Shown piece after piece: positions 1 through 52,455 of a stretch of DNA of 64,000 bases. A program made the translations under genes and the position numbers. Numbering within the stretch: the first letter of the stretch is position 1; each line of letters opens with the position of its first letter. Below the pieces are notes generated by a model. It did no database searches, was not told the DNA's origin, and was given only the letters and a program-made list of their open reading frames with translations. Where the stretch lies: NCBI RefSeq assembly GCF_963675165.1, contig NC_087387.1:5953601-6017600 (forward strand), given 5' to 3'. This DNA comes from Halichondria panicea (taxonomy: Eukaryota > Porifera > Demospongiae > Suberitida > Halichondriidae).

Positions 1-1232
1 TACCTCTTGATGATGCATCCACCGCACCAAGTGAAACAAAAAACACACCAGTCAGCACAACAACGACACGAGTCACCACAACTAGTGAGGCAATACTGGG
101 ATCAGCCACTGGACTATTGTTGGTTGTGCTGGTGGGTGTCATCATTGGGTGGATATGTACTTGCATTATCATGAGGAGGAGACACGAACAATACCACATC
201 AACCACAGGTCAGTCGACAGTGAGCTCACCTACTGCACCACACCCACCCACACACTAGCCACTATAGGAACTAGATTGTATATATCCTCAATACTTGAGA
301 GCGGCCCAACTCAAATTCTGAGATATGGTTCATGAATCACAACACTTTTAATGAAGCTTACAAGTGCTCATAATTATTATAATTAACACTTACTTTTGAA
401 ATGGATACAATTTTCCGTTTTAAGTGAAGCCAATTATATCCCACGGTAGTTTGACGAAAACAAGTTTTAACAGGCCACCTAAAAGTATTGCTCGTAACCT
501 ATCACAAAATCATAAAAGCAGCTATACTTGGCCAACAGAACTCAAGTCAAATACTACACACGCACACACAGACACACAGATGCTAACGGCTACACATACG
601 CCCACTCCACCACCTCCACACCTCACCCTGCCCCCTCTTGCGAGGCCCCGGACACTACCTACAGCTCAATAGGTCAAACCTACGAGACAATTCCTCCTAG
701 AGTAGTCCAAAGCTTTGACTCATTGACTGTTAATGAAGCATACGGACCAGCTAGGTCTATAGCACAAGATGATGACACGTACAGTAAGCTGGGCAACAGT
801 GTAACAAGGAGGCAAGGAGATTCAGAGCCACACAGAGTGATGGACAAATACCAACAGAGAGTTGATTCAAGAATTGATTACTCCACACAAGGACAAGACG
901 AGTTGGTCGACGATAGCTATAGCAAGCTGGCTGATAGCAAGCTAGTCGGCGATGATAGCTATAGCAAGCTGGTTGGTGACGATAGCTATAGCAAGCTAGC
1001 TGGTGCTGCTAGTAAAAGGTATGATTATTATGAACTGGAGCCACAGGGACTACAGTCGAGTGCCGATCAAAAGAGCTTCAAGATTGTGACGAAGGAAACT
1101 GAGTGTGCTGGTGGAGGGAACACTATTGAGGGGGCGGGAGGTCGTGAGGGGAGTGTGTGTAGTGAGGGGGCGGAAGATTACGAGGTCCCTATTAAAGGAA
1201 ATGTGGAGGATGCTCAAACGATAAATTTTTAA
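1..1232 (+). CDS. Gene A: type I membrane protein with multi-YSKL tail (5' partial)
   Basis: Two exons are visible: 1..208 (the 5' part lies outside the window) and 572..1232. The first encodes a Thr/Ser-rich stalk, then a transmembrane helix ending GWICTCIIMRRRH. It stops at an AG|GTCAGT donor in phase 2. The second starts after a CACACACAG acceptor, the only position that keeps frame, and encodes a tail of about 220 residues. The tail carries YSSI, YETI, four YSKL, YYEL and YEVP. The spacing between YxxL motifs is 5-10 residues, which resembles ITAM or hemITAM arrays without matching the consensus strictly. It is the close paralog of gene E (10,484-12,797), so the missing start probably encodes a signal peptide and a short Cys-containing ectodomain. 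Function is unknown; tyrosine-phosphorylation signalling at the plasma membrane is inferred from the motifs. Confidence 0.75.
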
Positions 1233-1308
1233 TACTGCAAACGCATAGAAAACTGTTTCTCTTACATGTCACATGATACATACATGAACTCATAATACGT
1301 GATGATCA

Positions 1309-1722
1309 TATGTGACAGGCTCTGGGAAAACAGACCAATTGGAGCAGATATTGGTATTGAGCAATAGCCAGATTTATAGACTACAGTGCATAATCTCATA
1401 AAATTTTTCTTGGCTTATAGCTTTCTACTACCTCTCTGCAAAATCTGATGCTCTGAATCCAACTCTTTCCACCAAAGCGCTTTTGTCTAAGCAGCCACAA
1501 TTACCTTACTTTTCCCAATTTGGCAATCTTTGAGTGGGCGTTTTTCAATACCGCTGTTTTACAACTTCGAGTTTCCAACGCGCATAACTCAGGCATGGAA
1601 CAAGCTATGTGCAAACTAAGCATATCAATGCGTAGGCAATTCTTTGCTCTATCATCTTGTATATAGATCGCAAAAATTATAGCTTGCGCCAATTGGTCTG
1701 TTTTCCAGAGCCTGTCACATAT
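1309..1722. mobile_element. Inverted-repeat element (MITE-like), about 414 bp
   Basis: The two ends are inverted copies of about 33 bp, beginning TGTGACAGGCTCTGG on the left (from about 1310) and ending CCAGAGCCTGTCACA on the right (to about 1720), with one indel between them. The interior has no credible coding capacity. This fits a non-autonomous DNA transposon. It occupies part of the 1.3 kb spacer between genes A and B. Confidence 0.65.
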
Positions 1723-2474: not shown

Positions 2475-2533
2475 ATAAAAATTACACGATTAAGAAGTGC
2501 AGTTAGCTAAAATTAATGTGCTCAACTATCAAG

Positions 2534-3869
2534 ATGAAGTTTGTATTTGTACTATTAGTAGCAGCAATTCACTGCAGACTTTCCATTGGACTCAATACTA
2601 GGAGTAAGTTAAAATAAGTATAATAATTATAACACAAGAAAACTTTGCATCATAGAATGCAGAATGGCTGCAGATTGTCTTAGAGAAATTGATGACCAAT
2701 GTACAGATATTTGCGATGATTGTACTGAAGATGTATTGAAAGAAAGATGCAATTGCCATCCATTCATTGAACCGTGCATGACAGTGAAAGTAACAGCCAC
2801 TCACACAGTGACCTACGCTCCTCCCATGGTAACTATAAGACCAACATGCTCTCCCCTAGTGGTAGCACCAACATGCACTCTTCCAGTGGCAAAAGTAACA
2901 CCATCATGTCCCACTACCATTACACAGTATTCAAGTATCACACCAACAAACTGTCTACGGTCTACACACACCAAGGAAATGTCTACAACTGTAGGGACAA
3001 GTTACACTGACACGGTTACTAGAAACAGTAGTTCAGTAACAGACAACATTAATACAACTACATGTAACTGCAGTCTAGTGACAGTCACCGCAATGTCAAC
3101 TACCGGAGGAGACTCAAACACCAGTCTTAACACAGCTACTGAAGCAGCTACAAGTAACAGCAATCAAGGGATGCCATGTAACAGTAGTCCAGTGACACTA
3201 GGAGCATTCATAGCTGTATACTAGCAGCACTGCTGGTTGCAGTAACTACAGGATGGATAGTCACTTGTGTGGTCAACAGAAGGAAAGATAAAGCCTCAAC
3301 TACAAGGTACTAGTAAACTAGGAGCACACAGTATTAGCTTAATCTACGTAGTACTGTATCAAATGCAATTGTGAATGAAACACTGTTCAATTAAGCTTCT
3401 GATTGCGATACTATATTCTAGAATTAAATGCTTTTTCCTTTCCGAGTATCATTTTAAACATCACGGGTATACATAGCAGTGAGATTGTTGTGTAATGACA
3501 TGTGTACGTGCACACACCTGTAGCAACAAAGATAATAACGCTCTACAAAACCCAGTGTATGATTCAGAACATGTCCAACGTTACCAAGGCAACCTGTCAG
3601 CTCGTACACAGACAGGTTACAGCTCACAGGGTCCGGCCTACGAGCAGGTCAGGGTTGACACGGGAACTGACTATGATGTCATCGATCGCAGTGGACCACG
3701 CCCACCAACCACACACCCTGTCCCTACATCTGACCAAGACTACAGTACATTGGATACTGACGAGCAAGAGCATGACTATCATGTGCTAGAATCAACCAAT
3801 GCAGGGGGTCCAACAGCTGTGGGGGGTCAAGAGCCTCAAGACTACGAGATACCACTCAGAAAGATGTAG
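2534..3869 (+). pseudogene. Gene B: small Cys-rich receptor with ITAM-like tail; frame broken in the membrane helix
   Basis: Exons 2534..2603 (signal peptide MKFVFVLLVAAIH, phase 1), 2656..3306 and 3524..3869. Exon 2 encodes a Cys-rich ectodomain of about 40 residues (several CxxC spacings, then RCNC), a long Thr/Ser stalk and the start of the helix (LGAFIAV). Compared with paralog D, two extra bases (TA, near 3219-3220) shift the frame and give a TAG at 3222-3224, so the helix and tail are lost if the sequence is right. The tail exon is itself open and carries YEQV, YDVI, YSTL, YHVL and YEIP. YSTL and YHVL are separated by exactly 8 residues, fitting the ITAM spacing. The product may be a secreted ectodomain, a pseudogene, or the result of a sequencing error. 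Confidence 0.7.
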
Positions 3870-7165: not shown

Positions 7166-8358
7166 ATGAAGTTTGTATTTGTACTATTAGTAGCAGCAGT
7201 TCACCGGAGCCTTTCCATTGGGGGAACTCCTATACGAAGTCAATAGTTATCATACATAACATGAACACTTTATGGCATTCGTTTGCATTATAGAATGCAG
7301 TCGTTCTGTGAAGTACTTATTCAAGTTAATGGACCAACATGCCTAAATATTTGCCGCAATGTTTTGAGAAACAACTTGATAGATAATATTATAGGCAGTT
7401 GTAACTTGAACTCAGGAGAGGCTTGCATAACGATTATTAATGTAACAGGCATTCAGAGAGATTCATGCTCTCCGGTCATAACACCATCATGCCCCACTAC
7501 AACCACGGTCATTACACAGTACTTGAGTATCACACCAACAAATTGTCTACAGCCTACACACACCAAGGAAATGTCTACAACCGTGGGGACAGGAAACACT
7601 GACGCAGCTACTGGAGAAGCTACATGTACCTGCAGTGAAGTGACAGCCACCATGATGTCAGCTGCTGTAGAAGACCAAAACAGTAGTCCAGTGATACTAG
7701 GAGCATTCATAGCTGTACTAGCAGCACTGCTGGTTGCAGTAACTACAGGATGGATAGTCACTTGTGTGGTCAACAGAAGGAAAGATGAAGCTTCAACAAT
7801 AAGGTACTAGTAAACAAAAACGCACATTATGTTAGGCTAAAATTTTACTACTAGATTACTACAAATTTTAGGATGGACCGTGATGTACTACAATTACTGG
7901 TATAGGTATTTGTGATCTTATGAAGCCATAATTATAGGACTCGCAAAGTTTGATGCTTGTGCAAAACATTGCAGTAAAACAATACACTAGTATTGTACAC
8001 ATACACACACTTGCAGTAACAAAGATAACGCTCTACAAAACCCAGTGTACGATTCCGAACATGTCCAGCGTTACCAAGGCAACCCATCGGCTCGCACACA
8101 GACAGGCTACAGCTCACAGGGTCCGGCCTACGAACAAGTCAGGGTTGACACGGGAACTAACTATGATGTCATTGATCGCAGTGGACCACGCCCACCAACC
8201 ACACACCCTGACCCATATCTGACCAAGACTACAGTACATTGGATACTGACGAGCAAGAGCATGACTATCATGTGCTAGAGTCCACCAATGCAGGGGGTCC
8301 AACAGCTGTGGGGGGTCAAGAGCCTCAAGACTACGAGATACCACTCAGAAAGATGTAG
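7166..8358 (+). pseudogene. Gene D: paralog of B with a tail frameshift and a doubtful first junction
   Basis: Exons 7166..7238 (signal peptide MKFVFVLLVAAVH), 7294..7803 and 8017..8358. The helix is intact here (LGAFIAVLAALLVAVTTGWI, then VTCVVNRRK). The stalk resembles that of B, but the ectodomain differs more. Two problems are visible. The signal exon ends in phase 1, whereas exon 2 needs phase 2 from the acceptor at 7293 or phase 0 from the next AG, so the usual junction is not frame-compatible. One base is also missing relative to B at about 8213-8217, so the frame closes at 8276-8278 before the YSTL/YHVL pair. YEQV and the preceding motifs remain in frame; the ITAM-like pair and YEIP are lost. 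Confidence 0.65.
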
Positions 8359-10483: not shown

Positions 10484-12797
10484 ATGAGGACCATAGTTTT
10501 ACTAGCACTTCTCTTACTGATAACTAATGGAGGAGGAAGAGCAGGTGAGTAGGTATCACATAATTATGCCTCGGTGCGCATGCGCAAGCGAGGTACGGTA
10601 GTGTGTTTGTGTGTGTCTGTGTCTGTGTTTGTGTGTGTGTGTGTGTGTAGACTGCTACAGCTGCTCAAGGATGAATCAAGTGCAAGTAAGAGTTTATATA
10701 GGCTTCTAGTCATGTTTACTTGGATTTTAATTCGTGGATTTGCAAAATAATGCTTCGTTCTCGAGTTATGCTTAGTTTTGCTTACTTGGAATGCCATTGC
10801 AGCCTTTTCAGAAGAGCACGTAGCCAAACTTGTTTACCGAATGTTGCTACTCTCTCTGCACTAGAACGCTAGCTATTGGTAGCTGCAAGAGTGAGAAGAG
10901 AGCTGCAAGGCTCTGCAGACGGCAGCCCGCATTAATTTTAGACTTGAACTTTTGGCATCGATCGTTTTTATCAACAATCATGGTCGATCATTACCAACTC
11001 TTTGAGTTTGCATGAATAAAAGCAGCTTTATGTTATGTAGCTTTGGCATCTCCACCGAGGCATCAGCACCTGCGGTACTTTCATTAATATACTAAATAAT
11101 AGTTAGACACTGTTTTGGAGGTGTCTATGGGATTTAGAAGCCCAAAGGCACTGATTTAGTATCCCGAGCGTAGTGAGGGTACTAAAGTGTTTGAGGGCTT
11201 CTAAATCACATGGACACCGACAAAACAGTGTCTAACTCATTTAGATACTAGTGCGCATGCGCAAACCGCTTGACTACAATACAATTACTTGACAACGGAA
11301 TACTAGGTATACTAAGTAAATTTGCAGGTATACTAAGTCCCATAGTATACCTGCTCTGAGGCACTTTTCCCATGTACTTCCCATGTAGATCTTATCAACT
11401 AGTGTCTAATTATTATTAATTACAGGCTAGCTTGATATGATTGAATTTGTGTTTCGATCTATAGACAAATGCTCTGGATTTCAATTAATACTAACAGAAA
11501 CAAACACACTAATGAGCTGGGAATTACAAAGTGCTGAACTACTTACGGATTCTACTTCCACTTTCGAATACAACATCACATACAAAATGGTCGATAACAA
11601 AACTGCTCATCTACAGTGCTCCTGCTCGTTGATCAAGAGCTGTGAGGATACAACAACAACAACGACAGTTAGCACTACACAATTGCCAGATACACCTCCT
11701 AATAACACATCAAGCGCACCAAGTGAAACAACACCAGTCAGCATAACAACGACACCAGCTAGCACACCAAGTGAGGCAATACTGGGATCAGCCACTGGAC
11801 TACTGTTGGTTGTGCTGGTGGGTGTCATCATTGGGTGGATATGCACTTGTATTATCATGAGGAGGAGACACGGACAATACCACATCAACCACAGGTCAGT
11901 CAACTGTGAGCTCACGTTTTCTGATTCAGTTGTTACTTAAGCTTATGATTGACACATTTGATTTTCAAAAGTGAAAAAATTTCCATATTTCGGCTAAATA
12001 CCATGGATAAGTTATTTTGCCAAGAGCGTGTAAAATTATCAATTTTTATACGCCATCTGAAAGTACAAGAGTACACTGTAAGCTATAAGAAAAGCCAATA
12101 TAACGACCACTTAAAAATACTACACACGCACACACACAGACACACAGATGGCTACACATACGCCCACTCCACCACCTCCACACCTCACCCCACCACCTCC
12201 TGCGAGGCCCCGGACACTACCTACAGCTCAATAGGTCAAACCTATGACACAATTCCTCCTAGAGTAGTCCAAAGCTTTGAAACACTGACAGTTAACGAAG
12301 CATACGGACCAGCTAGGTCTATAGCAAAAGATGATGACACGTACAGTAAGCTGGATAACAGTGTAACAAGGAGGCAAGGAGATTCAGAGCCACACAGAGT
12401 GATGGACAAATACCAACAGAGAGTTGATTCAAGGATTGATTACTCCACAGAAGGACAAGACGAGCTGGTTGATGAGAACTACAGCAAGCTGTCTGATAGC
12501 AAGCTGGCTGGTGACGATAGCTACAGCAAGCTAGAGCTAGCTGGCGATGATAGCTATAGCAAGCTGCCTGGTGCTGCTAGTAAAAGGCACGATTATTTTG
12601 AACTGGAGCCACAGGGACTACAGTTGAGTGCCAATCGCTTCAAGATTGTAACGAAAAAAACAGAGTGTGCTGGTGGAGGGAACACTAGTGAGGGGGCGGG
12701 AGGTCATGAGGGGAGTGTGTGTAGAGAGGGGACGGAGGATTACGAGGTACCTATTAAAAGAAATGTGGAGGTTACTCAAACGACTAAAGAGGAGTAA
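10484..12797 (+). CDS. Gene E: intact type I membrane protein with multi-YSKL tail
   Basis: Proposed exons: 10484..10544 (signal peptide MRTIVLLALLLLITNGG, phase 1), a 35-nt micro-exon 10651..10685 (DCYSCSRMNQVQ), 11431..11894 and 12140..12797. Together they give 1218 nt, 405 residues, with every phase consistent. The micro-exon and the acceptor at 11430 were chosen because the neighbouring AG at 11425 gives an immediate stop. The ectodomain is about 70 residues and ends in a QCSCSLIKSC cluster. A Thr/Pro stalk and a helix ending GWICTCIIMRRRH follow. The tail carries YSSI, YETI, three or more YSKL and YEVP. It is about as long as that of gene A and nearly the same in sequence. A plasma-membrane receptor with phosphotyrosine motifs is inferred; no ligand can be named. 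Confidence 0.7.
11102..11236. mobile_element. Short inverted-repeat element in intron 2 of gene E
   Basis: The left arm begins GTTAGACACTGTTTTG, and the right arm ends CAAAACAGTGTCTAAC. The complementarity extends imperfectly over about 40 bp on each side (GGATTTAGAAGCCC / GGGCTTCTAAATC). There is no coding capacity. It looks like a small foldback or MITE insertion. Confidence 0.65.
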
Positions 12798-13218: not shown

Positions 13219-13301
13219 ATGATGCTAACAGTGTTCTTAGTAATAGCCACACTTCTGGACAGTGGCCTAGCAAGTAAGTGCTCGTGTGTGTGTGCGTGTG
13301 G

Positions 13302-13336
<35 letters not shown>

Positions 13337-13452
13337 CGTGTGTGTGGGTGGGTGGGTGGGTGTGGGTGTGCGAGGGGTGGGGTGTGTGTGTGCGTGTAGG
13401 TGTATTTAATTCTACTGTAACATTGAAACTTCTATTCAGCTAAACTACTTCA

Positions 13453-13509
<57 letters not shown>

Positions 13510-15791
13510 CTAATTCTAAGAACCAAGATTAGATTGCTTTGTGCTTGCCACCTATAGAAGAACCACATAGACCCATCCCCATTATCAGATACTACCACCA
13601 CAAAACCTAGCCCAGACAATACAGGCCTGTACCTTATAAATTAAGCCTCCCTCAAGGTCAGATTTAGTTTACACAAGTACACAGCCAGCCATGCACAAGC
13701 TAAGTTGAAGTATTACAGCAGCCAATATCAAGTCTAAGATAAGTTCTATACTTTATGTCAGCATTACCTCAAATGTGAATATATAGCTTACAATCAGCAT
13801 GGCTCCAAGTGAATAGCTTCCAATAATTATTCAGTATACTAGTTGTTCTGAATGCAATAGATGAATGGGAAGGGTTGGTGCACCGTTAAAGACTCTGCAT
13901 GGCCCCAAGTGAATAGCTTCCAATAATTATTCAGTATACTAGTTGTTCTGAATGCAACAGATGAATGGGGAGGGTTGGTGCACCGTTAAAGACTCTGCAT
14001 GGCCCCAAGTGAATAGCTTCCAATAATTATTCAGTATACTAGTTGTTCTGAATGCAACAGATGAATGGGGAGGGTTGGTGCACCGTTAAAGACTCTTTAA
14101 CCCATCATTCTCGACTCTCAAGGTCGGGCATCTGATTGCTTTTTTCTACCAGTATGGTTTTGTGCTGTTTGTTCTTTTTGTTTCCTTTTTTTTTTTTTCT
14201 ATAGTCCCTTAACTATTACTGAAGAGCTTCCCAAAATAATGTAGACACACTGTGATAGACTATATGCAAAATAAACCTAGATACAGATCGGAATGCATTT
14301 ATAATTTTGAGCTATTTCTAAGTTTTAGGCTGAGTCAGTAATTATGTGTCGGAAAGCCCGATCCCACCCTCTATACTTCTGTATATACCATTCTCAAACA
14401 CACACACACACACACACACACGTACAGTGCCAAACTGTCGTAACGGGGACTACAGAGTAATAATGTGCAATCAGGTCCAACAGTGCATCAACAAAGTGTG
14501 GACAGACATACACTGTACATGTGACCTCGCTAACACGCTGCAAACCAGTACAACCGCACAACCATCTACAAACACCATCTGCCCTACCATTACACTAACA
14601 GATACACCAAACACGGCAGTCCAACAAATGGTCGTAGCAATACAAGCCACACCCACACCCACCCCGTACCCTGACCCCTTTCAGGAACTATTCTACGCCT
14701 GCCTCCCCCTACAGTCTCTCTACTTCAGCGTGATGGCGTTCCTATCTCTGCTAGCACTCATACTAGCTATAGGCTGGATACACACGTGCATAATTCTAAA
14801 ACACCGAATCAAAAAGCTGCGACCACCAATCAGTCCGAAAGGTTTAACAGCTAATTTTGTCTTGGCTAGTACATCAGAGGCAGTAGGCACGCTGGTAAGA
14901 GCACACCCCTACGAGAGAATGAAGACTACTAATGTTGACTCAGACTACAACCTTTTGAAAAGGGATGAAATAACTCCAAACGGACTTAAAAGTCCTAAAC
15001 TGTCAATTACCACAAATTTGCCACCAGATTACGAATATAATAAGTTGGAAAAACCGAGTGACAATCACGAAGAAGAGATCGCCGTTGCTATAGCTACTGA
15101 TGACAATCCGGAGCAGAGAATGTCATGTGACTACGATCACCTTGACGATGACGCACTCCCCACAGAGCGCCCCCCGCAGAGAGACGACTACTACACACTA
15201 AAAGGGCCGATCAATCGCACGAACCGTCCCTACCACATTGTGGATAGTCCGGGGGTTGTAGTCAGAGAGAGGTCTAGGAGCAGATGCAGTGACTATAGTG
15301 TCCTAGTGGGACCAGGTATGGCCAGTCACAGGACTCACACTACGAGCGAGCCCGCTATTGGTAGTCAAGGAAACGACGACATGGGTAGTCAAGCCAACGA
15401 AATAAGAATTGGTCAACGAAATGATTACCACGTTTTGGAAGGCCCGTTTCCGACTAAGCCTCCAGCACAAAAACGAAGATCAAGCGATTATCATGTTCTA
15501 GAGGGACCATTTCCAGCCAAGCCTCCTCCACCAATAACAAGGAGATGTGATTACTACATGTTGGAAGGTCCAGGTATGGCTAGCTATAAGCACAGTGCTT
15601 CAGAAAACAATATATTTGAACACTCGACACGTACAGTCGAAAAAAACCAGTGGAGAATGAATAGAAACTCTAACAAAGAAGCTATCAGCATTGAAACTAG
15701 TGCACAGGTGCAGCGTGCACTAGTAACAGACCAAGAGAACAGTATTGGTAATGCTACAGAGGTCACTTCCCCGCAAAGAAAGCATCAATAA
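13219..15791 (+). CDS. Gene G: receptor with very long multi-YxxL/proline tail
   Basis: Exons 13219..13273 (signal peptide MMLTVFLVIATLLDSGLA, phase 1) and 14428..15791, giving 472 residues. The acceptor lies at the end of a (CA)n tract followed by GTACAG. The ectodomain is short, with cysteines ending IHCTCDLANT, then a Thr/Pro stalk. The helix ends AIGWIHTCIILKHRIKK, matching the GW-x-x-TC signature of the cluster. Unlike its relatives, helix and tail are in one exon. The tail carries YNLL, YNKL, YDHL, YYTL, YSVL, YHVL twice and YYML, mostly followed by E/V/K-G-P, with nearby KPP stretches that could bind SH3 domains. The frame ends at an in-frame TAA (15789-15791) but stays open beyond it (next entry). 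Confidence 0.75.
13799..14095. repeat. Three tandem copies of a 100-bp unit in intron 1 of gene G
   Basis: GGCCCCAAGTGAATAGCTTC (first copy GGCTCC) recurs at about 13,801, 13,901 and 14,001. Each copy ends CACCGTTAAAGACTCT. The copies differ by only a few bases. No function is evident. Confidence 0.85.
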
Positions 15792-29657: not shown

Positions 29658-29695
<38 letters not shown>

Positions 29696-35776: not shown

Positions 35777-35826
<50 letters not shown>

Positions 35827-36329
35827 CTACAATCAAGGATCCAATAACTACGGATGACAACTATTCACTGGCACAAGTCATTGACTCTTCATACTATGAA
35901 GCCACGCCCACTAAACCACCACCTACAAGCCCCAGTAACGATGCAACTAACGAGTGCGAGTCTAAAACACAAATAATACACGTGGAATGTGCTACCTACG
36001 ATAGTTACGCTGGCCCCAACCAGTTACTCTCGCAAGCAATCAACCCATCTAGCTACAATACTGTGAGCACAAGCGATGAAGGAATTGGAGACTATGATGT
36101 CATTGATAATAACAAGCCGAAACAGAAACCAAAACCATCCAACCCACCACCAGTGAAGGTTGAGGCCAGTAAGGGAGAAGATGAGTTCTACAATGCAGAG
36201 GAGCATATGTGTATAGGTACTGATATGAAAGCTAAGAGGGACAATAAATCAAGGAATGCAGAAACTGATGGACTGGAAGAGAACAAGACGAAGAAAGAGT
36301 CTGTATATAGTGTGCTCAGGCCTGTGTGA
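33938..36329 (+). pseudogene. Gene J1: triple-SRCR receptor with a nonsense codon
   Basis: Exons 33938..33998, 34073..34258, 34307..34456, 34506..34673, 34720..34851, 34923..35078, 35127..35592 and 35825..36329 follow the gene I plan exactly. In the fourth exon the codon that reads CAA in J2-J4 is TAA (34556-34558), just after VRLVGGSTEH, which ends the protein inside SRCR2. Everything downstream remains open and, from about 34,707 on, looks identical to J2 and J3. The stop therefore appears recent. The helix ends LVGWMCTCIIMHRNN. A tail TGA at 36327 sits where gene I has TGG, removing about 20 terminal residues. Confidence 0.78.
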
Positions 36330-37165: not shown

Positions 37166-39008
37166 ATGGCTATTGTACTATTCATAAGCTTTGCTCTACT
37201 AGCTACACAAGTCACAGCTCAAGCAGGTAAACATTGTTGCATCATAGTAACAAACATGCATGCTTCTCAAAACCTCCTATAGCAGATTGCATTAACAGCA
37301 CACTCAGACTATCGATGGAGACAGATGATGGTGCTTCAATCAAAGGGCTTCCTGAGTACTGCTTTAGTGGAGTATGGAGGAGGATATGCATGGTTAATGG
37401 AGAAATGAGGGCAGAAGCAGAAACAAAGCAAAAACAAGCATGCAAACAATTAGGATACGGTGCTAAAAGTGGTGAGATATTGGATCGAGCACCTTTTGAT
37501 ATATAAGTATATAATACTGTCGCACAGCATCACTTTTACCAGGACTGCAGCTGGATACAGATGAAGAACCATTTGTAACAATTGGGAACTGCAGTATTAA
37601 TGCAAAGAGCTTACAAGAATGTGAAGTGAGAGAGACTACTGACTGTACAATGCGAGAGCAGCTCAGATGCAACAGAGGTAAATACAAATTGTTCTATGTG
37701 ATAACCAAGAGCTTTCTTCGTATTAAACAGCTTCCTGCCCAAGTGAACGAGTAAGACTAGTGGGTGGATCTACTGAACATCAAGGTCTAGTGGAGGTGTG
37801 CTCTGATGGACGCTGGGGAACACTGCATGCTAGAAATCCAACTGAAATTGCAAGGGAAGTTTGCAGAAGACTCTTGAATGGCGAGGATGAAGCCAATTGT
37901 AAGAATAAACCTACTCCTATATAAAACCTACACAATAATTATATTTCTCAGTTTCTAGTGTTACATCAATTTCTTCCAAGCCTGCCTACAACTGTTCAAT
38001 TCTTAGGGGAACACTAACCTGTGAAGAATCTACTTACGACAATCATCATTTTCATCTAAACGTTTCATGTCCAATTTCTAATAGTAAGTTTTTAGTATAC
38101 TGGCGTAACTGGCACAGTTGTAATCAATTATTGTGTTGTTCCTAATACACTTAGACAGCTGCAAGCAAGAAGTTAGATTGACTGATGGATACAGCTACAG
38201 GGAGGGGAGAGTTGAGGTTTGTTCAGGTGGCGTGTGGCGATCTGTCTGCAATTTTGGTCAAGAAGGAATTGCTGGAGCAGCTTGCTATCAAGCTGGGTTT
38301 CCAAGGGAAGGTAAGCCATATAAAATGCATACTTAGATAAACAAAAACTAACTCACAGGAGCCATGGTTACAAGCTATAGGAGAGAAACCACTGACAGAA
38401 TTAGCTGCTGCTGTTTCGTTACAAACACAAATCTCAACTGTATTTCATGCAAGGAAGTTGCTTGCATTTACATGCTCGGTGTTGTTTGTCAGGTTTGGGA
38501 CCATTTACAACCTGCAAACAATGCCAGTGAATGTAAGTACAGCCACCGTCAATTTACCACAGTCCCTATACACTATAACTCTTACTATACAGTCTCTACT
38601 ACACCCCTCTCTGTAACAGAGTTCACAAGTCTGGACTCTACGACCCTGAGCCAGGGCACTGAACTTGTAACCAGTACCCAACTCACAATCACATCCCCTG
38701 ACAACAACACAGTATTGTTTGGAGCCATTATTGGAGTGCTATTTACTCTACTGCTAGCTACACTAGTGGGATGGATGTGCACATGCATCATCATGCATAG
38801 GAACAACACTACAAAGTCAACTAGGTAAGTGATAACTGTTTGCACTCATTCCTTATACAGCGTTCAAATACACAAAGCAAAATTATAGGTACTTTACTTG
38901 CATCAATAATGTTTAAAAGCTTACACAATACTATAATATTATTTGCAGTAGACTCTATAAATATTAATTATGGAGGGAGAGGGCTAGGAAACACACGTAC
39001 ACACACAT

Positions 39009-39058
<50 letters not shown>

Positions 39059-39561
39059 CTACAATCAAGGATCCAATAACTACGGATGACAACTATTCAC
39101 TGGCACAAGTCATTGACTCTTCATACTATGAAGCCACGCCCACTAAACCACCACCTACAAGCCCCAGTAACGATGCAACTAACGAGTGCGAGTCTAAAAC
39201 ACAAATAATACACGTGGAATGTGCTACCTACGATAGTTACGCTGGCCCCAACCAGTTACTCTCGCAAGCAATCAACCCATCTAGCTACAATACTGTGAGC
39301 ACAAGCGATGAAGGAATTGGAGACTATGATGTCATTGATAATAACAAGCCGAAACAGAAACCAAAACCATCCAACCCACCACCAGTGAAGGTTGAGGCCA
39401 GTAAGGGAGAAGATGAGTTCTACAATGCAGAGGAGCATATGTGTATAGGTACTGATATGAAAGCTAAGAGGGACAATAAATCAAGGAATGCAGAAACTGA
39501 TGGACTGGAAGAGAACAAGACGAAGAAAGAGTCTGTATATAGTGTGCTCAGGCCTGTGTGA
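37166..39561 (+). CDS. Gene J2: triple-SRCR receptor in the 3232-bp array
   Basis: Exons 37166..37226, 37286..37471, 37528..37677, 37731..37898, 37952..38083, 38155..38310, 38359..38824 and 39057..39561 total 1824 nt (607 residues) with all phases consistent. Signal peptide MAIVLFISFALLATQVTAQA. SRCR1 (KGLPEYCFSGVWRRIC), SRCR2 (RVRLVGGSTEHQGLVEVC) and SRCR3 (EVRLTDGYSYREGRVEVC) follow. The stalk is Thr/Ser-rich. The helix ends LVGWMCTCIIMHR. The tail includes DNYSLAQ, YEATPTKPPP, YDVI, FYNAEE and YSVL. The start is set at the ATG conserved in J1, K and L; an in-frame ATG at 37052 would add 38 residues in front of the signal sequence. Exons 5-8 look identical to those of J1 and J3. Confidence 0.82.
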
Positions 39562-40397: not shown

Positions 40398-42240
40398 ATG
40401 GCTATTGTACTATTCATAAGCTTTGCTCTACTAGCTACACAAGTCACAGCTCAAGCAGGTAAACATTGTTGCATCATAGTAACAAACATGCATGCTTCTC
40501 AAAACCTCCTATAGCAGATTGCATTAACAGCACACTCAGACTATCGATGGAGACAGATGATGGTGCTTCAATCAAAGGGCTTCCTGAGTACTGCTTTAGT
40601 GGAGTATGGAGGAGGATATGCATGGTTAATGGAGAAATGAGGGCAGAAGCAGAAACAAAGCAAAAACAAGCATGCAAACAATTAGGATACGGTGCTAAAA
40701 GTGGTGAGATATTGGATCGAGCACCTTTTGATATATAAGTATATAATACTGTCGCACAGCATCACTTTTACCAGGACTGCAGCTGGATACAGATGAAGAA
40801 CCATTTGTAACAATTGGGAACTGCAGTATTAATGCAAAGAGCTTACAAGAATGTGAAGTGAGAGAGACTACTGACTGTACAATGCGAGAGCAGCTCAGAT
40901 GCAACAGAGGTAAATACAAATTGTTCTATGTGATAACCAAGAGCTTTCTTCGTATTAAACAGCTTCCTGCCCAAGTGAACGAGTAAGACTAGTGGGTGGA
41001 TCTACTGAACATCAAGGTCTAGTGGAGGTGTGCTCTGATGGACGCTGGGGAACACTGCATGCTAGAAATCCAACTGAAATTGCAAGGGAAGTTTGCAGAA
41101 GACTCTTGAATGGCGAGGATGAAGCCAATTGTAAGAATAAACCTACTCCTATATAAAACCTACACAATAATTATATTTCTCAGTTTCTAGTGTTACATCA
41201 ATTTCTTCCAAGCCTGCCTACAACTGTTCAATTCTTAGGGGAACACTAACCTGTGAAGAATCTACTTACGACAATCATCATTTTCATCTAAACGTTTCAT
41301 GTCCAATTTCTAATAGTAAGTTTTTAGTATACTGGCGTAACTGGCACAGTTGTAATCAATTATTGTGTTGTTCCTAATACACTTAGACAGCTGCAAGCAA
41401 GAAGTTAGATTGACTGATGGATACAGCTACAGGGAGGGGAGAGTTGAGGTTTGTTCAGGTGGCGTGTGGCGATCTGTCTGCAATTTTGGTCAAGAAGGAA
41501 TTGCTGGAGCAGCTTGCTATCAAGCTGGGTTTCCAAGGGAAGGTAAGCCATATAAAATGCATACTTAGATAAACAAAAACTAACTCACAGGAGCCATGGT
41601 TACAAGCTATAGGAGAGAAACCACTGACAGAATTAGCTGCTGCTGTTTCGTTACAAACACAAATCTCAACTGTATTTCATGCAAGGAAGTTGCTTGCATT
41701 TACATGCTCGGTGTTGTTTGTCAGGTTTGGGACCATTTACAACCTGCAAACAATGCCAGTGAATGTAAGTACAGCCACCGTCAATTTACCACAGTCCCTA
41801 TACACTATAACTCTTACTATACAGTCTCTACTACACCCCTCTCTGTAACAGAGTTCACAAGTCTGGACTCTACGACCCTGAGCCAGGGCACTGAACTTGT
41901 AACCAGTACCCAACTCACAATCACATCCCCTGACAACAACACAGTATTGTTTGGAGCCATTATTGGAGTGCTATTTACTCTACTGCTAGCTACACTAGTG
42001 GGATGGATGTGCACATGCATCATCATGCATAGGAACAACACTACAAAGTCAACTAGGTAAGTGATAACTGTTTGCACTCATTCCTTATACAGCGTTCAAA
42101 TACACAAAGCAAAATTATAGGTACTTTACTTGCATCAATAATGTTTAAAAGCTTACACAATACTATAATATTATTTGCAGTAGACTCTATAAATATTAAT
42201 TATGGAGGGAGAGGGCTAGGAAACACACGTACACACACAT

Positions 42241-42290
<50 letters not shown>

Positions 42291-42793
42291 CTACAATCAA
42301 GGATCCAATAACTACGGATGACAACTATTCACTGGCACAAGTCATTGACTCTTCATACTATGAAGCCACGCCCACTAAACCACCACCTACAAGCCCCAGT
42401 AACGATGCAACTAACGAGTGCGAGTCTAAAACACAAATAATACACGTGGAATGTGCTACCTACGATAGTTACGCTGGCCCCAACCAGTTACTCTCGCAAG
42501 CAATCAACCCATCTAGCTACAATACTGTGAGCACAAGCGATGAAGGAATTGGAGACTATGATGTCATTGATAATAACAAGCCGAAACAGAAACCAAAACC
42601 ATCCAACCCACCACCAGTGAAGGTTGAGGCCAGTAAGGGAGAAGATGAGTTCTACAATGCAGAGGAGCATATGTGTATAGGTACTGATATGAAAGCTAAG
42701 AGGGACAATAAATCAAGGAATGCAGAAACTGATGGACTGGAAGAGAACAAGACGAAGAAAGAGTCTGTATATAGTGTGCTCAGGCCTGTGTGA
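40398..42793 (+). CDS. Gene J3: apparently identical third copy of the SRCR receptor
   Basis: Exons 40398..40458, 40518..40703, 40760..40909, 40963..41130, 41184..41315, 41387..41542, 41591..42056 and 42289..42793. The whole gene matches J2 at an offset of 3232 bp as far as I can compare, including introns, microsatellite length and the early tail stop. It encodes the same 607-residue protein. Either the duplication is very recent or homogenised, or one copy is an assembly artefact. Confidence 0.75.
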
Positions 42794-43629
42794 AGAATGG
42801 AGGGGGCGGCTGTGTGGGAAGTGGAGGGCTCAGAGGAAGACACGAGGTTGTGAAGCAAACAATTATTGCACGATAGCTCAAACATTATTTGCACATCAGA
42901 TTTCTTTGTATTTGTTTTTGCTGAGTATGCACTATTTCATTAGCAATACTGACACTCAATACGCACTTTTAGCTGACGATTATTGACGTCCGACGAAGAT
43001 CGGTAGTCTACTAGCGCAGCCGCTCTCGGACGTTCGCAACACACGTGACAATCAGCTCCGCCAGATTTGCCCATGGACAATTTGGGCCCGAAATACATTA
43101 GTCTAAACATACCATATTGTAGCACTACCAAACAGCTAGTCATCTTTAGCTTGGAAATTGAACATTCCCAACACTAGTTATGTACAATCAAAGATAGCTT
43201 CGAAACCGGACCTGATTCTGTTAACACCCTCATCTACACAGGACTAGCTGAGGTACTTATCAATACCGTATAGGCTATAGCGGGTAATTCAGAAATGTTT
43301 GCCCCAAAAATTAATCTATATAGATTATACACAGCTGTATACCAATGGATAGAGACTTATAGTTGGACTTCCAGCTCATTCTAGTTGCCCACAATCACTA
43401 GATCTAGCTCATGAACAATTAATGAGCAATGCTAACGTTAACGTTGTGTATACACCTTGATATCATTAAATGCTAGTGTTACTTAAACAAACTTCCACTT
43501 ATAATATACTCATGCATGGACAGAAAGGAAGCACCCAGAACATTGATAAATAGGCTTGAACAAGAGCATTATAGGCACAGTATACTATCTATTGGTATAA
43601 TCATGAGCTTCTATAATTATTTGAAGAGA

Positions 43630-46126
43630 ATGGCTATTGTACTATTCATAAGCTTTGCTCTACTAGCTACACAAGTCACAGCTCAAGCAGGTAAACATTG
43701 TTGCATCATAGTAACAAACATGCATGCTTCTCAAAACCTCCTATAGCAGATTGCATTAACAGCACACTCAGACTATCGATGGAGACAGATGATGGTGCTT
43801 CAATCAAAGGGCTTCCTGAGTACTGCTTTAGTGGAGTATGGAGGAGGATATGCATGGTTAATGGAGAAATGAGGGCAGAAGCAGAAACAAAGCAAAAACA
43901 AGCATGCAAACAATTAGGATACGGTGCTAAAAGTGGTGAGATATTGGATCGAGCACCTTTTGATATATAAGTATATAATACTGTCGCACAGCATCACTTT
44001 TACCAGGACTGCAGCTGGATACAGATGAAGAACCATTTGTAACAATTGGGAACTGCAGTATTAATGCAAAGAGCTTACAAGAATGTGAAGTGAGAGAGAC
44101 TACTGACTGTACAATGCGAGAGCAGCTCAGATGCAACAGAGGTAAATACAAATTGTTCTATGTGATAACCAAGAGCTTTCTTCGTATTAAACAGCTTCCT
44201 GCCCAAGTGAACGAGTAAGACTAGTGGGTGGATCTACTGAACATCAAGGTCTAGTGGAGGTGTGCTCTGATGGACGCTGGGGAACACTGCATGCTAGAAA
44301 TCCAACTGAAATTGCAAGGGAAGTTTGCAGAAGACTCTTGAATGGCGAGGATGAAGCCAATTGTAAGAATAAACCTACTCCTATATAAAACCTACACAAT
44401 AATTATATTTCTCAGTTTCTAGTGTTACATCAATTTCTTCCAAGCCTGCCTACAACTGTTCAATTCTTAGGGGAACACTAACCTGTGAAGAATCTACTTA
44501 CGACAATCATCATTTTCATCTAAACGTTTCATGTCCAATTTCTAATAGTAAGTTTTTAGTATACTGGCGTAACTGGCACAGTTGTAATCAATTATTGTGT
44601 TGTTCCTAATACACTTAGACAGCTGTAAGCAAGAAATTAGATTGACTGATGGATACAGCTACAGAGAGGGGAAAGTTGAGGTTTGTTCAGGTGGCGTGTG
44701 GCTATCTGTCTGCAATTTTGGTCAAGAAGGAATTGCTGGAGCAGCTTGCTATCAAGCTGGGTTTCCAAGAGAAGGTAAGCCATAAAATGCGTACGTATAG
44801 AAAAACAAATAATACTCAAATTCAAAGGTGCGATGGTTACAAGCTACGGAGGAGAAACCAGTGGCGGAATGAGCTGCAACTGTTTAGATACGAACACAAC
44901 TCTCAAATGCACTACATGCGAGATCACCAATTGCCATAATATTCTCAGTGTTGTTTGTCAGGCTTGGGAACATTTACAACCCGTAAACATAAGCAGTGAA
45001 TGCACAGAACAGCCTCCTGTGATTGAGCCTGCCTCTACTACAGCTTCTACTACATGTATAGTCCCTACTACAGCTACTGCTATAACAGACTCCACTATCA
45101 CTGGCACTGAACACGCAGTCAGTACCCAACCCACATTTACATCCCCTGTCAACAACACAGTTACACTGCTTGGAGCCATTATTGGAGTGCTGTTTGCTCT
45201 ACTGCTAGCTACACTAGTGGGATGGATGTGCACATGTATCGTCGTGCATAGGAACAACACTACAAAGTCAACTAGGTAAGTGATAACTGTTTGCACTCAT
45301 TCCTTATACAGCGTTCAAATACACTAAGCATAATTATAGGTACTTTACTTGTATCAATACACTTAGGAAAGCTTACAGCATTGTGTGCAGTAATATGGCC
45401 TAAATAAGCTGAGTGATGGTTTGATTATTATGATAAAGTTCTCTAAGAGCTCTTTTAGTTTCCAAATTGGCCAAATCCACCGCACTAGCAGTGAGCACTC
45501 AATGTTAGTTCTAGCAACAACATGGTATATGTATATGCTTTGGATAAATGATACTAAATATACACACCCACATGCACACACATGCATACGCTTACACACA
45601 CACCCACACATGTATACTCCCACACACACACATACACTACTTCAGTTCCGCAACCAACAATCCACTTATCACGGATGACAACTATTCACTCGGACAAGTC
45701 ATTGAATGTGTATACGATGAAGCCACACCCACTCAACCACCTCCTACAGATCCAGGCAACGAGGGCAAGCCAAAAATGCACACATCACACATGGAAACTG
45801 ATTACGCTGACCCCAACCAGTTACTCTTCCAAACAGCCAAAATATCCACTTCCAATACTGTGACCACAAGCAATGATGGAATTGGAGACTATGCTGTCAT
45901 TGATCATAACAAGCCGAAACCATCCAACCCACCACCAGTGAAGGTTGAGGCCAGTAAGAGTGATGATGAGTTCTACAATGCAGAGGTTCATATGTATGCA
46001 GCAGCTGTAAAGGGGCCGAATAATAGAGAGGAAGAGAATAAGACGAAGAAAGGTGCTAATCAGCCGGTGTATGATGTGGCCATGCCCGGGGAAGCTGTGT
46101 GGGGAGTGGAGGGGGCGGCTATGTGA
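43630..46126 (+). CDS. Gene J4: SRCR receptor at the array edge, J2-like front and K-like rear
   Basis: Exons 43630..43690, 43750..43935, 43992..44141, 44195..44362, 44416..44547, 44619..44774, 44828..45275 and 45646..46126 give 1782 nt (593 residues), in frame throughout. Exons 1-5 equal those of J2 and J3. From exon 6 onward the sequence diverges and resembles K: the stalk differs, the helix ends LVGWMCTCIVVHRNN, and the tail begins with NNPLITDDNYSLGQVIECVY and contains YAVI, FYNAE and VYDVA. The tail acceptor is CTACTTCAG after a short (CA)n region. This looks like a recombinant between two receptor types. Confidence 0.8.
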
Positions 46127-46718: not shown

Positions 46719-48758
46719 ATGGCTCTTGTACTATTCACCAGCTTTGCTCTACTAGCTACACAAGTCACAGGTCAAGCAGGTAAACATTGTTGCATCATAA
46801 TTATGTATAATTATAGTAGCAATCAGATACTATTATGCATGCATGCTTCTCATCAATCAAACCTCCTAGCAGATTGCATTATAACTAAACTCAGACTATA
46901 TAATTAGCAATGGTGCAGATGATGGTGTTTCTGTCCAATATTCTGTGCAATATACACAAATGCTTTTTATACAGTTATCTGCCCCAAAGAGCGAGTAAGA
47001 CTTGTGGGTGGATCCCCTGTACATCAAGGTCAAGAAAGTCAAGACGGTATAGTAGAAGTATGCTCTGATGGACGCTGGGGAAAAGTACAGACTAGCCAGC
47101 CACAACAAGTTGCAAGAGAAGTTTGCAAAAGACTTAACTTTAACGAGATGAATGAAATAACTAGTAACGGTAAGAATCTATATATCTCACACAAAACTAT
47201 AATTATACTCGTGCAGTTTCTAATGTTTCATCTTCCGAACCTGCATTTGTCTACAACTGTTCAATTATTTGTGGATCCCTGACCTGTCAAGAATCTATAA
47301 CAACAATGAACACAATTTTGATCTAAGTGTTTCATGTCACAACCCTCTTGGTAAATAATAAGATATGAATGTATAATTATAATTGTTTTTCCTAATAGAC
47401 TCGGAAAGCTGTGATGGAACAGTTAGATTGGCTGATAGCTACAGCTACAGGGAGGGGAGAGTTGAGGTTTGCTTCAATGGTCAGTGGAGATCTGTCTGCA
47501 ATTATGGTAGAGAAGGAAACGCCGGAGCAGCTTGCTATCAAGCTGGGTTTCCAAGAGAAGGTAAACATAAAATGCGTAAGAATAGGTAAATGCTCACATT
47601 AATGTATAAACTCATTTAAAGGTGCCGTAGTTACAAGCTATGAGAGAGATACCAGTGACAGAATGACACACTGCAACTGTTTAAATACAAATACAACTCT
47701 CAACTGCAATATATGCAGCGACTCTTGCACAAATATCCTTGGTGTTGTTTGTCAGGCTTGGGAAAATTTACAACCTGCAAATATAGGCAATGAATGTACA
47801 GTACAGCCTCCTATGATTGAGCCTACAAATCAATCTACTACAGCCTCCTCTGTAACGGACACAGGTCTGGACTCCACTACCATCCTGAGCCTCCCTGGGG
47901 GCACTGAAGTTGTAGCCAGTACCACAACAAGCACACCTCCTGACAACCACACAGTATTGTTTGGAGCCATTATTGGAGTGCTATTTGCTCTACTGCTAGC
48001 TACACTAGTGGGATGGATGTGCACATGCATCATCATGCATAGGAACAACACTACAAAGTCAACTAGGTAAGTGATAACTCATTTCTTATACATGCAGCGT
48101 TCAGATAGACTAAGCAAATACATGTCCAATGTACTTTAGTTGCATCAATAAACTTACTGAATAACAGTAAACAGCTTAAAGCTTACAGCATTGTTGTACT
48201 ACATAATCGTGACAACAATGTTCCTACACTTTCATTTTCCGAATGGCCAAATCAAATGCACTAGCATTGTTCAATCAAAGTTAGTTCTAGCAAAAACATG
48301 TATACTTTGGGTTGTACGTAAATACACACTCACATGCACACACATCATGTATCATGTATACCAGGCCCAGATCTAGGCCGGGGGTGGGTTTCAGGGGTTG
48401 CAACCCTCCCAAACACTCACAAAAACTAGCTCAACCTACACTTGTGTTGCTTGTGACACACTAAGTAGTAAACACACAATAATTTTCATTCCACACATAC
48501 CATTCCATACATGTATTATGACAAGGCACCTAGCTGTAGTAGACAGTAGATTTGTAAGTATACTTTGTGCATGTTTACTATGATATCAATTTCAATTAAG
48601 GGGCGTGGTCAAACATTTAGCGCGCGCGCTAACGCATGCTTTTGTTTTATAACCCCCGTATAAATTTTGGCTGGATTCGCCCCTGTATACACCTACACAC
48701 CCACACACACACACACATGTATACGCCTACACACACACACATACACACATGTATACAC

Positions 48759-48857
<99 letters not shown>

Positions 48858-49344
48858 CTTCAGTTCTCCAACCAACAATCCACTTATCACGGATGACAAC
48901 TATTCACTCGGACAAGTCATTGAATGCATATACGATGAAGCCACACCCACTCAACCACCTCCTACAGACCCAGCTAACGAGGGCAAGCCAAAAACGCATA
49001 CATCACAAATAGACTCTGATTATGCTGACCCCAACCAGTTGCTCTTCCAAACAGCCAAAACATCCACTTCCAATACTGTGAATACAAGCAATGAAGGAAT
49101 TGGAGACTATGCTGTCATTGATCATAACAAGCCGAAACCATCCAACCCACCACCAGTGAAGGTTGAGGCCAGTAAGAGTGATGATGAGTTCTACAATGCA
49201 GAGGTTCATATGTATGCAGCAGCTGTAAAGGGGCCAAATAATAGAGAGGGAGAGAATAAGACGAAGGAAGGTGCTAAACAGCCGGTGTATGATGTGGCCA
49301 TGCCTGGGGAAGCTGTGTGGGGAGTGGAGGGGGCGGCTGTGTGA
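46719..49344 (+). pseudogene. Gene K: SRCR receptor with decayed SRCR1 and a frameshift in SRCR2
   Basis: Signal exon 46719..46779. The first SRCR1 exon (from about 46,871) soon reaches TAG, and the second SRCR1 exon is absent. Remaining exons: 46975..47169, 47217..47350, 47399..47560, 47622..48066 and 48864..49344. Because these introns are phase 1, the signal exon could splice straight to 46975 and give a two-SRCR form. However, exon 47217..47350 is 134 nt, not a multiple of 3, and reaches TAA before its last Cys. The tail is open, with DNYSLGQ, YAVI, FYNAE and YDVA motifs, and its acceptor follows the longest (CA)n tract of the window. Confidence 0.72.
48760..48855. repeat. Long (CA)n microsatellite before the K tail exon
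   Basis: An almost uninterrupted (CA)n run of more than 40 repeats, preceded by variant ACACACATGTATAC blocks. It ends 9 nt before the CAG acceptor at 48,861-48,863. His-Thr and Cys-Val open frames over it are artefacts. Confidence 0.95.
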
Positions 49345-49967
49345 GGAGTGGAGGGGAGGAGGAGTACTCGAGGTTGAAACTTTAATACATGCACTGTTGG
49401 TATTCGGTTATATAATTATGTGAGACTTGAAGTACTTTTAATTTGCACATCATTAAATATTGTTTTTGCTAGCTACAAATTGTACGAAAATGTCATACAA
49501 AAATAATTTTGTAAACTAAAATTAATCCTTCTCTCACCCATGCATGTAATTATGTGTCTTTATAAGGTAGTTCTCACCTCCTCACATGGAAAGCTACAGT
49601 CACCTGCATTAAAGGTGGTATACTTCATGCATTATAATTATTATCCGAGGCTTGAAACAAAAGTATAGTTGGTAATTCTGAAATGTTTGCCCCGAAAATT
49701 ACCCGCTATATGAATTATCATTCTAGCTGCTCACGATCACTAGATCTAGCTCATGAATAATTAACGAGCAATGGTTTACCCTAACCTTAACGTGGTGTAT
49801 ACACCTTGATATCAATCTTGCTATTGTTGCAGCAGCTAAAATAAACTTCCACTATATATACTCATGGACAAAAAGAGCACACCGAACATAGATATAGGCT
49901 TAAACAAGAGCATTATAGGCACAGTATATATCTATTGGTATAATCGTGAGCTTCCTATTTGAAGAGA

Positions 49968-52455
49968 ATGGCTATTGTACTATTCATCAGCTTTGCTCTA
50001 CTAGCTTCACAAGTCACAGCTCAAGCAGGTAAACATTGTTGCATCATAGTAACAAAGACACACTATAATTATAATTTATATGCATGCTTCTCAAACCTCC
50101 TATAGCATATTGTATTAACAGCACACTCAGACTATCAATGGAGACAGATGATGGTGTTTCAATCAAAGGGCTTCCTGAGTACTGCTTTAGTGGAGTATGG
50201 AGGAGGATATCACTATGCATGGAAAGGTTGGCAGACACAGAGCAAAAACTGGTATGCAAACAACTAGAATACGATGAAAGTGGTGAGATAATTCTCGAAA
50301 CTACAAACTAACATTTATCAGGCACCTTCATGCATGATAACACACAGCATCGATATCAACATCAAGAGTTATGTATACAAGTGAAGCACCACATGTAACA
50401 ATTGGGAACTGCAGTATGGATGCAAAGAGCTTACAAGAGTGTGAAGTGAGAGAGACTACTACTGACTGTAAAATGCGAGAGCAGCTCATATGCAACAGAG
50501 GTAAGCACACTCACTACATATACTTGTATTCTCTGCATGTGATAAGAGCTTTCTTGTGCAGTTATTTTCCCCAAAGAGCGAGTAAGACTAGTCGGTGGAT
50601 CTATTGAGCATCAAGGTCAAGTGGAGGTGTGCTCTGATGGACGCTGGGGAATACTGCAGACTAGCCAGCCACAACAAGTTGCAAGAGAAGTTTGTAGAAG
50701 ACTCGACTTTAACGAAATTACCAGTGACGGTAAGAAATCTATGTCACATGCACAGACCATGACAATCAGTCTATAGCATCTTCCAAGCCTGTCTACAACT
50801 GTTCAATTATTTGTGGATCCCTGACCTGTGAAGAATCTACAAACAACTTTGATCTATTGAGCATTTCATGCCAAAACATTGGTAAGTGCTATATAATATA
50901 TGCTATATATAATTGTGTTCTCAATAGACCTGGAAAGCTGTGATGATGATGGACAAGTTAGATTGACTGATGGTTACAGCTACCGGGAGGGGAGAGTTGA
51001 GGTTTGCTTCAATGGCGTGTGGGGATCTGCATGTCTGCAATCTTCGTCAAAAAGGAATTGCCGGAGCAGCTTGCTATCAAGCTGGTTTTCTGAGAGAAGG
51101 TAGTTTTAATAAGCCAAAACACACAACACTTCAAACACATAGGTGCCATGGCTACTAGCTATGGAGAAGAGAGTAGAGGCTATTGCTGTAGTAATATCAC
51201 AATAACCCTACAAAGCTGCCAACTATGCTTTATTCAGGGATGTGATATCCTTGGTGTTGTTTGTCAGGCTTGGGCTCAATTACAACCAACAAACAATGCC
51301 AGTGAATGTACAGTACAGCCTCCTATAATTGAGCCTACAGGTTCATCTAATATTATAGCCTCTACTACAGCCTCCTCTTTAACAGATTACACAAGTCTGG
51401 ACTCTACTACCACCACCCAGAGCCGGGTCACTGAACCTGTAACCACTATCCAACCCACAAGCACACCTCCTGACAACCACACAGCACTGCTCGGAGCCAT
51501 TATTGGAGTGCTATTTGCTCTACTGCTAGCTACACTAGTGGGATGGATGTGCACATGCATCATCATGCACAGGAACAAAACAAACACTACAAAGTCAACT
51601 AGGTAAGCAATAAGAATTTGACCTCATTCCTTATACAGCGTTCAAGCAAATATATTATGTCGAATGTACTTTAGTTGTATCAATTATAAACTTACCGAGT
51701 AACAGTAAACAACTTAAAAGCTTACAGCATTGTTCAGTATGGCTGGTTGTATATACTACATAATAATAATTATGACAACGTTCCTAGCACTTTCAGTTTC
51801 CGAATAATAATAATTTGCCAAACCAAATGCACTAACAATGTGCACTCAAAGCAAAAGCATGCATGCATGCTTTGGGTAAATACACACCCACAAACACACA
51901 CTATTTAGTTCCACAACCAACAATCCACTTATCACGGATGACAACTATTCACTCGGACAAGTCATTGAATGTGTATACAATGAAGCCACACCTACTCAAC
52001 CACCTCCTACAGACCCAACTAACAATGTCAAATCCAAAACGTCACAAATGGAAACTGCTACCTACGATTACGCTGGCCCCGACCTGTCACTCTCCCAACC
52101 AACCAACCCAACTAACTACGATACTGTGACTACAAGCGATGAAGGAATTGGAGACTATGATGTCATTACTGATATCAAACAGAAACCAAAACCATCCAAC
52201 CCACCATCAGTGAAGGTTGAGACCAGTAAGAGTGAAGATGAGTTTTACAATGCAGAAGAGCATATGTACGCAGCTATTGATAAGAAAGCTAAGAGGGAAA
52301 ATAAACCAGAAACTGGTGGAGAGGAAGAGAACAAGATGAAGAAAGGTGCTAATCACCCGATGTATGATGTGGCCATGCCTGGGGAGGCTGTGTGGGGAGT
52401 GGAGGGGGCGGCTGTGTGTGAAGTGGAGGGGGAGTACTCGAGGTTGAAGCGTTGA
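49968..52455 (+). pseudogene. Gene L: triple-SRCR receptor with a 4-nt insertion in SRCR3
   Basis: Exons 49968..50028, 50106..50282, 50348..50500, 50562..50729, 50777..50881, 50928..51099, 51143..51602 and 51909..52455. The SRCR1 acceptor used by J genes (CAG|ATTG) is mutated to CAT. An AG three bases upstream (50104-50105) keeps frame with one extra residue. Exon 6 is 172 nt instead of a multiple of 3: GCAT is inserted near 51,029-51,032 (TCTGCATGTCTGC against TCTGTCTGC), so SRCR3 goes out of frame. The helix (LVGWMCTCIIMHRN) and the tail, with DNYSLGQ, TYDYAGP, YDTV, YDVI and FYNAEE, remain open. The copy may be dead, or the insertion may be an error. Confidence 0.75.

Follow-up and report, generated by a model that had tools for sequence, protein, structure and literature searches.

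A stretch of 64 000 nucleotides from the sponge Halichondria panicea (contig NC_087387.1, here C11; positions 5953601–6017600, referred to as the window) contains a series of single-pass receptor genes that probably belong to one tandemly expanded, recombining SRCR-type receptor family with tyrosine-signalling tails, which is concentrated on one chromosome and has members with short ectodomains. The genome searched comprises 131 Mb in 39 contigs, of which C11 accounts for 5%. This one chromosome carries roughly a hundred copies of a single signalling-receptor anchor, joined to differing outer parts, an arrangement with the look of a home-grown system of recognition receptors. A member is predicted to consist of a signal peptide, a phase-1 intron, an ectodomain, a Ser/Thr-rich stalk, a helix, a phase-2 intron and a tail with tyrosine motifs. 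The ectodomain would carry SRCR domains in the S genes and many C11 relatives, and a short, fast-changing Cys-rich segment in the A/E, C and D genes (Table 1). Genome and profile searches establish the helix module as homologous across the A/E, C, D and SRCR groups, with matches almost wholly on C11. All splice sites are predictions from sequence.

The helix module and its chromosomal distribution

An earlier note on the window had described a shared signature, GW-[IVM]-x-T-C, at the end of the membrane helices. A search with the expression GW[IVMLF]xTC in six frames over the whole window gave 15 matches, 14 on the plus strand (Table 1) and one on the minus strand (13690), where the frame is interrupted by stops. 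The signature is real at the 14 plus-strand places. At two of these, D1 and C2, the reading frame is broken, and C2 also lacks part of its helix. The signature marks the inner end of one helix, a few residues inside that end and preceding II-M-RRR or similar. Gene H is a weaker match, as had been stated. The outer end of the helix is conserved as well (LGAxxG). A G-x3-[GA] step sixteen residues before GW is present in 24 of 28 modules, picked by hand with near-copies included, against 0.8 expected from shuffles; three C-type modules and L023 (L numbers denote loci) are without it. The module comprises the outer G-x3-[GA] step, the inner GWxxTC, a basic stop and the phase-2 intron, and is larger than the signature first described. 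Steps of the G-x3-G type favour helix pairing. The helices contain no charged residue, so that a DAP12-type adaptor chain would not be needed. The TC cysteine may be palmitoylated, as the note had suggested.

As a DNA pattern, the signature occurs 52 times genome-wide (33 on C11, 14 of them in the window) versus 43 times for the reversed pattern. On such counts, the short signature alone is weak evidence and the whole module carries the family claim. A 45-residue query from E gave 94 matches at E ≤ 10, 92 of them on C11 and one each on C13 and the C2 chromosome; at E ≤ 0.001 there were 14, 12 of them on C11. The reversed E module gave no match, an empty result that by itself shows nothing. With a query from an SRCR-bearing C11 gene, 86 matches were obtained (83 on C11 and one each on C13, the C2 chromosome and C9), and all 45 at E ≤ 0.001 are on C11. 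The two queries merge into 117 distinct C11 sites and three elsewhere, many of them individually weak; the weaker C11 sites rest on their clustering (56 at 5.82–6.02 Mb, 30 at 5.34–5.59 Mb, 23 at 6.63–6.80 Mb and eight elsewhere). The count of 117 is incomplete, genes C2, G and H of the window being missed by both queries, and takes in broken copies; the 6.63–6.80 Mb set may be inflated by assembly. Within that set, at C11:6636234–6797441, module matches are paired on opposite strands about a centre near 6716000, which may be a palindrome of ∼160 kb or an assembly artefact. SRCR domains are found on many chromosomes, with at least 213 matches at E ≤ 0.01 (150 of 1364 candidates scored) and at least 12 contigs among the matches listed; the module is therefore a mark of the C11 cluster and not of SRCR genes at large.

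For membership, a helix profile with the group in question held out had to score it above all shuffles and above a chance match elsewhere. Held-out groups scored 26–63 bits and shuffles up to 21 bits. The A/E, D, C, S, SRCR-type, L054, L023, C13 and C2-chromosome relatives reached 34–63 bits, and the distal L064 and L066 (26.1 and 28.9 bits) were barely over the chance match, an unrelated C9 frame of 24.8 bits that likewise beats all its own shuffles. G (24.6 bits) and H (17.9 bits) do not exceed it. The proposal of one receptor superfamily around a fixed membrane segment consequently stands for the A/E, C, D and SRCR genes, for which genome searches, held-out profile and donor phase agree, with G and H as uncertain members.

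The best-scoring donor was taken after each of 49 candidate modules, 40 of which are distinct by 90-nt identity. It is of phase 2 in 46 of the 49 and in 37 of the 40, which bears out the phase-2 intron claimed to follow the helix except in G. The remaining candidates are G, for which no donor scored above zero, L009 and L017; we take L009, L017 and L019 to fit the pattern by chance. L019 is counted among the 37, as is L035, where the donor region consists of N; leaving out these two gives 35 of 38. The 37 also cover H and the relatives on C13 and the C2 chromosome. Some donors are weak, those of the D type scoring ∼0.4. The phase-1 intron said to follow the signal peptide was found by scan in D1, C1, E and G (where no intron follows the helix) and by eye in C2, but not by scan in D2 and S1; outside the window it is present in L031, L034, L062, L063 and L065. 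The junction before the helix exon is of phase 1 in S2, L065, D1, C1, E and several copies outside the window.

No Pfam family exceeded its cut-off for the module or tails among the window frames scanned (those without SRCR or kinase domains), and Rfam gave no match in the window at gathering score. A PDB search with the helix returned four sequences, all weak matches: DWORF, integrin alpha-X and two ErbB2 helices (best E of 0.021). No paper on sponge SRCR proteins, immunoreceptor tyrosine-based activation motifs (ITAMs), Syk, immunoreceptors or receptor clusters was recognised as describing the module, the motif itself being not findable by text.

Ectodomains and tails

The SRCR domain (PF00530) is matched in S1 (window 20574–20816, E = 1.7e-6), in L065 (E = 1.6e-13) and in L043 on C13 (E = 1.4e-7); S2–S7 are called SRCR-type by their similarity to S1. 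No SRCR domain was found by sequence in the ectodomains of A/E, C, D, G and H. The ectodomains had been called unrelated, and the short ones are indeed without SRCR similarity by sequence, a weak test that leaves room for loss of SRCR exons. That short ectodomains are halves of SRCR domains likewise has no sequence support, by the same weak test. A single-sequence structure model of the H domain is beta-rich with a mean pLDDT (predicted local distance difference test) of 65; a fold search with it gave no match at E ≤ 0.001, and hence no fold was assigned. Apart from the A/E genes, the helix and juxtamembrane stretch closest to that of E belongs to L043 (C13:3698201–3701320), an SRCR gene (61% identity, E = 3.5e-8), and despite this likeness its tail matches no other sampled tail.

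The short-ectodomain genes could be SRCR receptors that have lost SRCR exons instead of having gained new ectodomains. Wherever found, the intron after the signal peptide is of phase 1, as is the intron before the SRCR helix exon, so the frame would be kept on loss of the exons in between; moreover, many of the C11 loci inspected are relatives that carry SRCR domains, and the C and D tails match SRCR-type tails. We lean away from this explanation, though not far, set against the absence of SRCR similarity in the short segments.

Exchange of tails, proposed together with that of ectodomains, does not hold as a general rule, as 11 of 13 sampled tails link into one similarity chain. Tails of the C, D and SRCR types share a common origin, and YxxL, ITAM-like and NPxY motifs are abundant in them; the search with the E tail found no other group, and the G tail is an outlier. 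Paired Yxx[LIV] motifs 6–12 residues apart, the spacing of ITAMs, are present in ten of the 13 tails, compared with 1–7% of shuffles; with tails delimited as they are here, H and the C13 and C2-chromosome genes have none. It is rather unlikely, in our estimate, that the tails serve chiefly for uptake, with NPxY and YxxPhi driving clathrin endocytosis of scavenged particles. A scavenger role is classic for SRCR proteins, N[PA]xY occurs in seven of the 13 tails and Yxx[LIVM] is frequent; ITAM signalling is favoured instead by the spaced pairs and by candidate readers of paired motifs encoded in the genome.

Of 71 SH2 matches genome-wide at E ≤ 0.001, three loci were picked since two matches stood close together. 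Their domain orders were read from genomic DNA, and that the pieces form one gene is a prediction. L070 (SH2–SH2–tyrosine phosphatase) is an SHP-like candidate and L071 (SH2–ankyrin–SH2–tyrosine kinase) a Shark-like candidate. L072 has tandem SH2 domains, one half below the Pfam cut-off, followed by an apparent kinase start; it is a Syk-like candidate on its tandem SH2 domains, the kinase itself not being reached.

Probable exchange around a near-constant anchor

The claim that ectodomains are exchanged is supported in a refined form. Silent divergence falls sharply between ectodomain and helix inside one exon, with several-fold to more than tenfold differences, and S2 switches its nearest relatives: its SRCR half is nearest to S5/S6 and its stalk to S1/S7 (999 and 1000 of 1000 bootstraps). 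As segments of the ectodomain–stalk–helix exon differ in history, outer parts are likely to have been mixed around a near-constant anchor by recombination or gene conversion.

A family of the same kind without exchange, in which selection drives rapid change of the ectodomains and helix and tail stay constant, silent sites included, would account for the high nonsynonymous divergence (dN) of ectodomains (about 0.3–0.8 in distant D and A/E pairs) and for the conservation of helix and tail within groups. Additionally, the intron after the helix is diverged or replaced between D1 and D2 and the tail exon is 83–100% alike in most 60-base steps, as constraint on silent sites of coding parts might produce. 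We nevertheless regard it as improbable, in view of the abrupt change of silent divergence within one exon and the near-total bootstrap support for the switch in S2. Chance or convergence among membrane helices, to which the small excess of the DNA pattern over its reverse, the C9 frame scoring level with G and the weak PDB matches might point, is hardly credible and is rejected for A/E, C, D and S given the concentration of whole-module matches on one chromosome, the empty reversed query, the held-out profile, the common donor phase and the common tails.

In the recombining family that we favour, the outer part would bind ligand, helices would pair through their G-x3-G face, Src-type kinases would phosphorylate the tail and the tandem-SH2 proteins (the Syk-, Shark- and SHP-like candidates) may read the paired YxxL motifs. 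The outcome would be a family of recognition receptors whose specificities can be interchanged and which share a single output.

Gene models, known systems and significance

Gene models are summarized in Table 1. Frames are broken in the D1 helix exon (about 3221–3251), the D2 tail (about 8200) and the C2 helix exon (deletion at about 9208), which suggests birth and death of copies. Genes S2–S4 form tandem 3232-bp units (window 34707–44625), 34707–41393 being identical to the sequence 3232 bp downstream; this is either a very recent amplification or an assembly effect. Beyond the G stop codon (window 15789–16538) a long frame continues with repeats resembling the end of the G tail, and the mucin-like TTMEP-repeat stretch of H (window 17300–17660) is open in several frames.

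Table 1. Predicted receptor genes of the window (all on the plus strand)
Feature	Positions	Description	Basis
A, helix exon	1..208	3' part of stalk–helix–juxtamembrane exon, 5' part outside window; GWICTCII at 147	donor CACAG^GTCAGT, phase 2
A, tail exon	516..1232	open frame with YSKL repeats; true 5' end not fixed	86% identity to E tail
D1	2534..3869	signal peptide exon 2534–2603; short Cys-rich ectodomain and stalk; GWIVTCVV at 3251; donor 3307; tail to 3869	signature match, frames, donor scan
C1	5697..6879	signal peptide exon 5697–5754; ectodomain–helix exon 5843–6245 (GWVSTCVY at 6184); tail to 6879	signature match, frames, donor scan
D2	7166..8275	signal peptide start 7166; helix exon end 7803 (GWIVTCVV at 7748); tail leaves D frame at ~8200	signature match, frames
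C2	8767..9925	signal peptide exon 8767–8827; helix exon 8914–9287 with helix deletion (GWVSTCVY at 9226 out of frame with ectodomain); tail to 9925	signature match, frames
E	10484..12797	signal peptide exon 10484–10544; ectodomain–helix exon 11465–11894 (GWICTCII at 11833); tail end 12797	signature match, frames, donor scan
G	13222..15791	signal peptide exon 13222–13273; single exon with Cys-rich ectodomain, GWIHTCII at 14772 and tail; stop 15789	signature match, frames, donor scan
H	17232..19736	mucin-like TTMEP repeats; beta-rich domain; AWVILCIV at 18515; phase-2 donor 18571; tail to 19736; membership uncertain	frames, profile, donor scan
S1	20060..22646	SRCR receptor; GWMCTCII at 21614	signature match, Pfam SRCR domain
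S2	33938..36329	SRCR-type receptor; GWMCTCII at 35537	similarity to S1
S3	37166..39561	SRCR-type receptor; helix at 38769	signature match, frames
S4	40398..42793	SRCR-type receptor; helix at 42001	signature match, frames
S5	43630..46126	SRCR-type receptor; GWMCTCIV at 45220	signature match, frames
S6	46719..49344	SRCR-type receptor; helix at 48011	signature match, frames
S7	50075..52455	SRCR-type receptor; helix at 51541; signal peptide exon not located	signature match, frames

Elsewhere in the window, three minus-strand genes (54594–62503) join TRAF-type zinc fingers to a protein kinase domain, near a RING-like Cys pattern seen by eye at 53191–53562 (no Pfam match at E ≤ 0.01). On the plus strand, 31162–33416 holds two frames that carry portions of a Neuralized domain and, after them, a frame with a protein kinase domain.

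The vertebrate leukocyte receptor complex also consists of clustered single-pass receptors with diversified ectodomains, tyrosine-based output through ITAMs or immunoreceptor tyrosine-based inhibitory motifs, and birth and death of copies. It differs in having immunoglobulin (Ig) ectodomains in place of SRCR or short Cys-rich ones; the helices here are without a charged residue for an adaptor, and the ITAM-like motifs are in the receptor's own tail. The allorecognition complex of Hydractinia, another early animal, is likewise a receptor gene cluster (Alr) but with Ig-like ectodomains; the likeness is not extended to polymorphism or allorecognition, a single assembly being considered here. Engulfment receptors of the Draper/Shark type (PMC8092387) are alike in their modular outer part and cytosolic signalling motifs, and a Shark-type locus is present here. 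Draper is a single EGF-repeat receptor, as opposed to an expanded cluster. That the C11 cluster is a self/non-self recognition complex, with one signalling anchor and outer segments repeatedly swapped by recombination, and an independently invented early-animal counterpart of the vertebrate leukocyte and natural killer receptor complexes, is a doubtful proposition to which we give little weight.

To our knowledge, little has been worked out on how sponge SRCR receptors signal or whether they form a recognition complex, and the parts of PMC10855680 and PMC12909245 used here do not treat the question. Tandem SRCR expansion is already known in sponges: the Amphimedon queenslandica SRCR superfamily, as excerpted from PMC10855680, has large tandem-duplicated families with varying numbers of SRCR domains, similar to those described here, and the paper discusses loss of exons in sea urchin. 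The same excerpts mention no common helix signature, short-ectodomain members or confinement to one chromosome, and split the SRCR domain over three exons, compared with apparently two in S and L065; tyrosine-motif tails are missing from that account, the word 'tyrosine' occurring 0 times in its main text. What is unusual here is an anchor-and-tail module nearly confined to one chromosome, short members missed by SRCR searches, ITAM-like tails and segment-wise mixed histories. A constant module on one chromosome provides a handle to list all members, including the short ones, and opens a test of outer-part swapping and of whether ITAM-type signalling by receptor clusters is as old as sponges.
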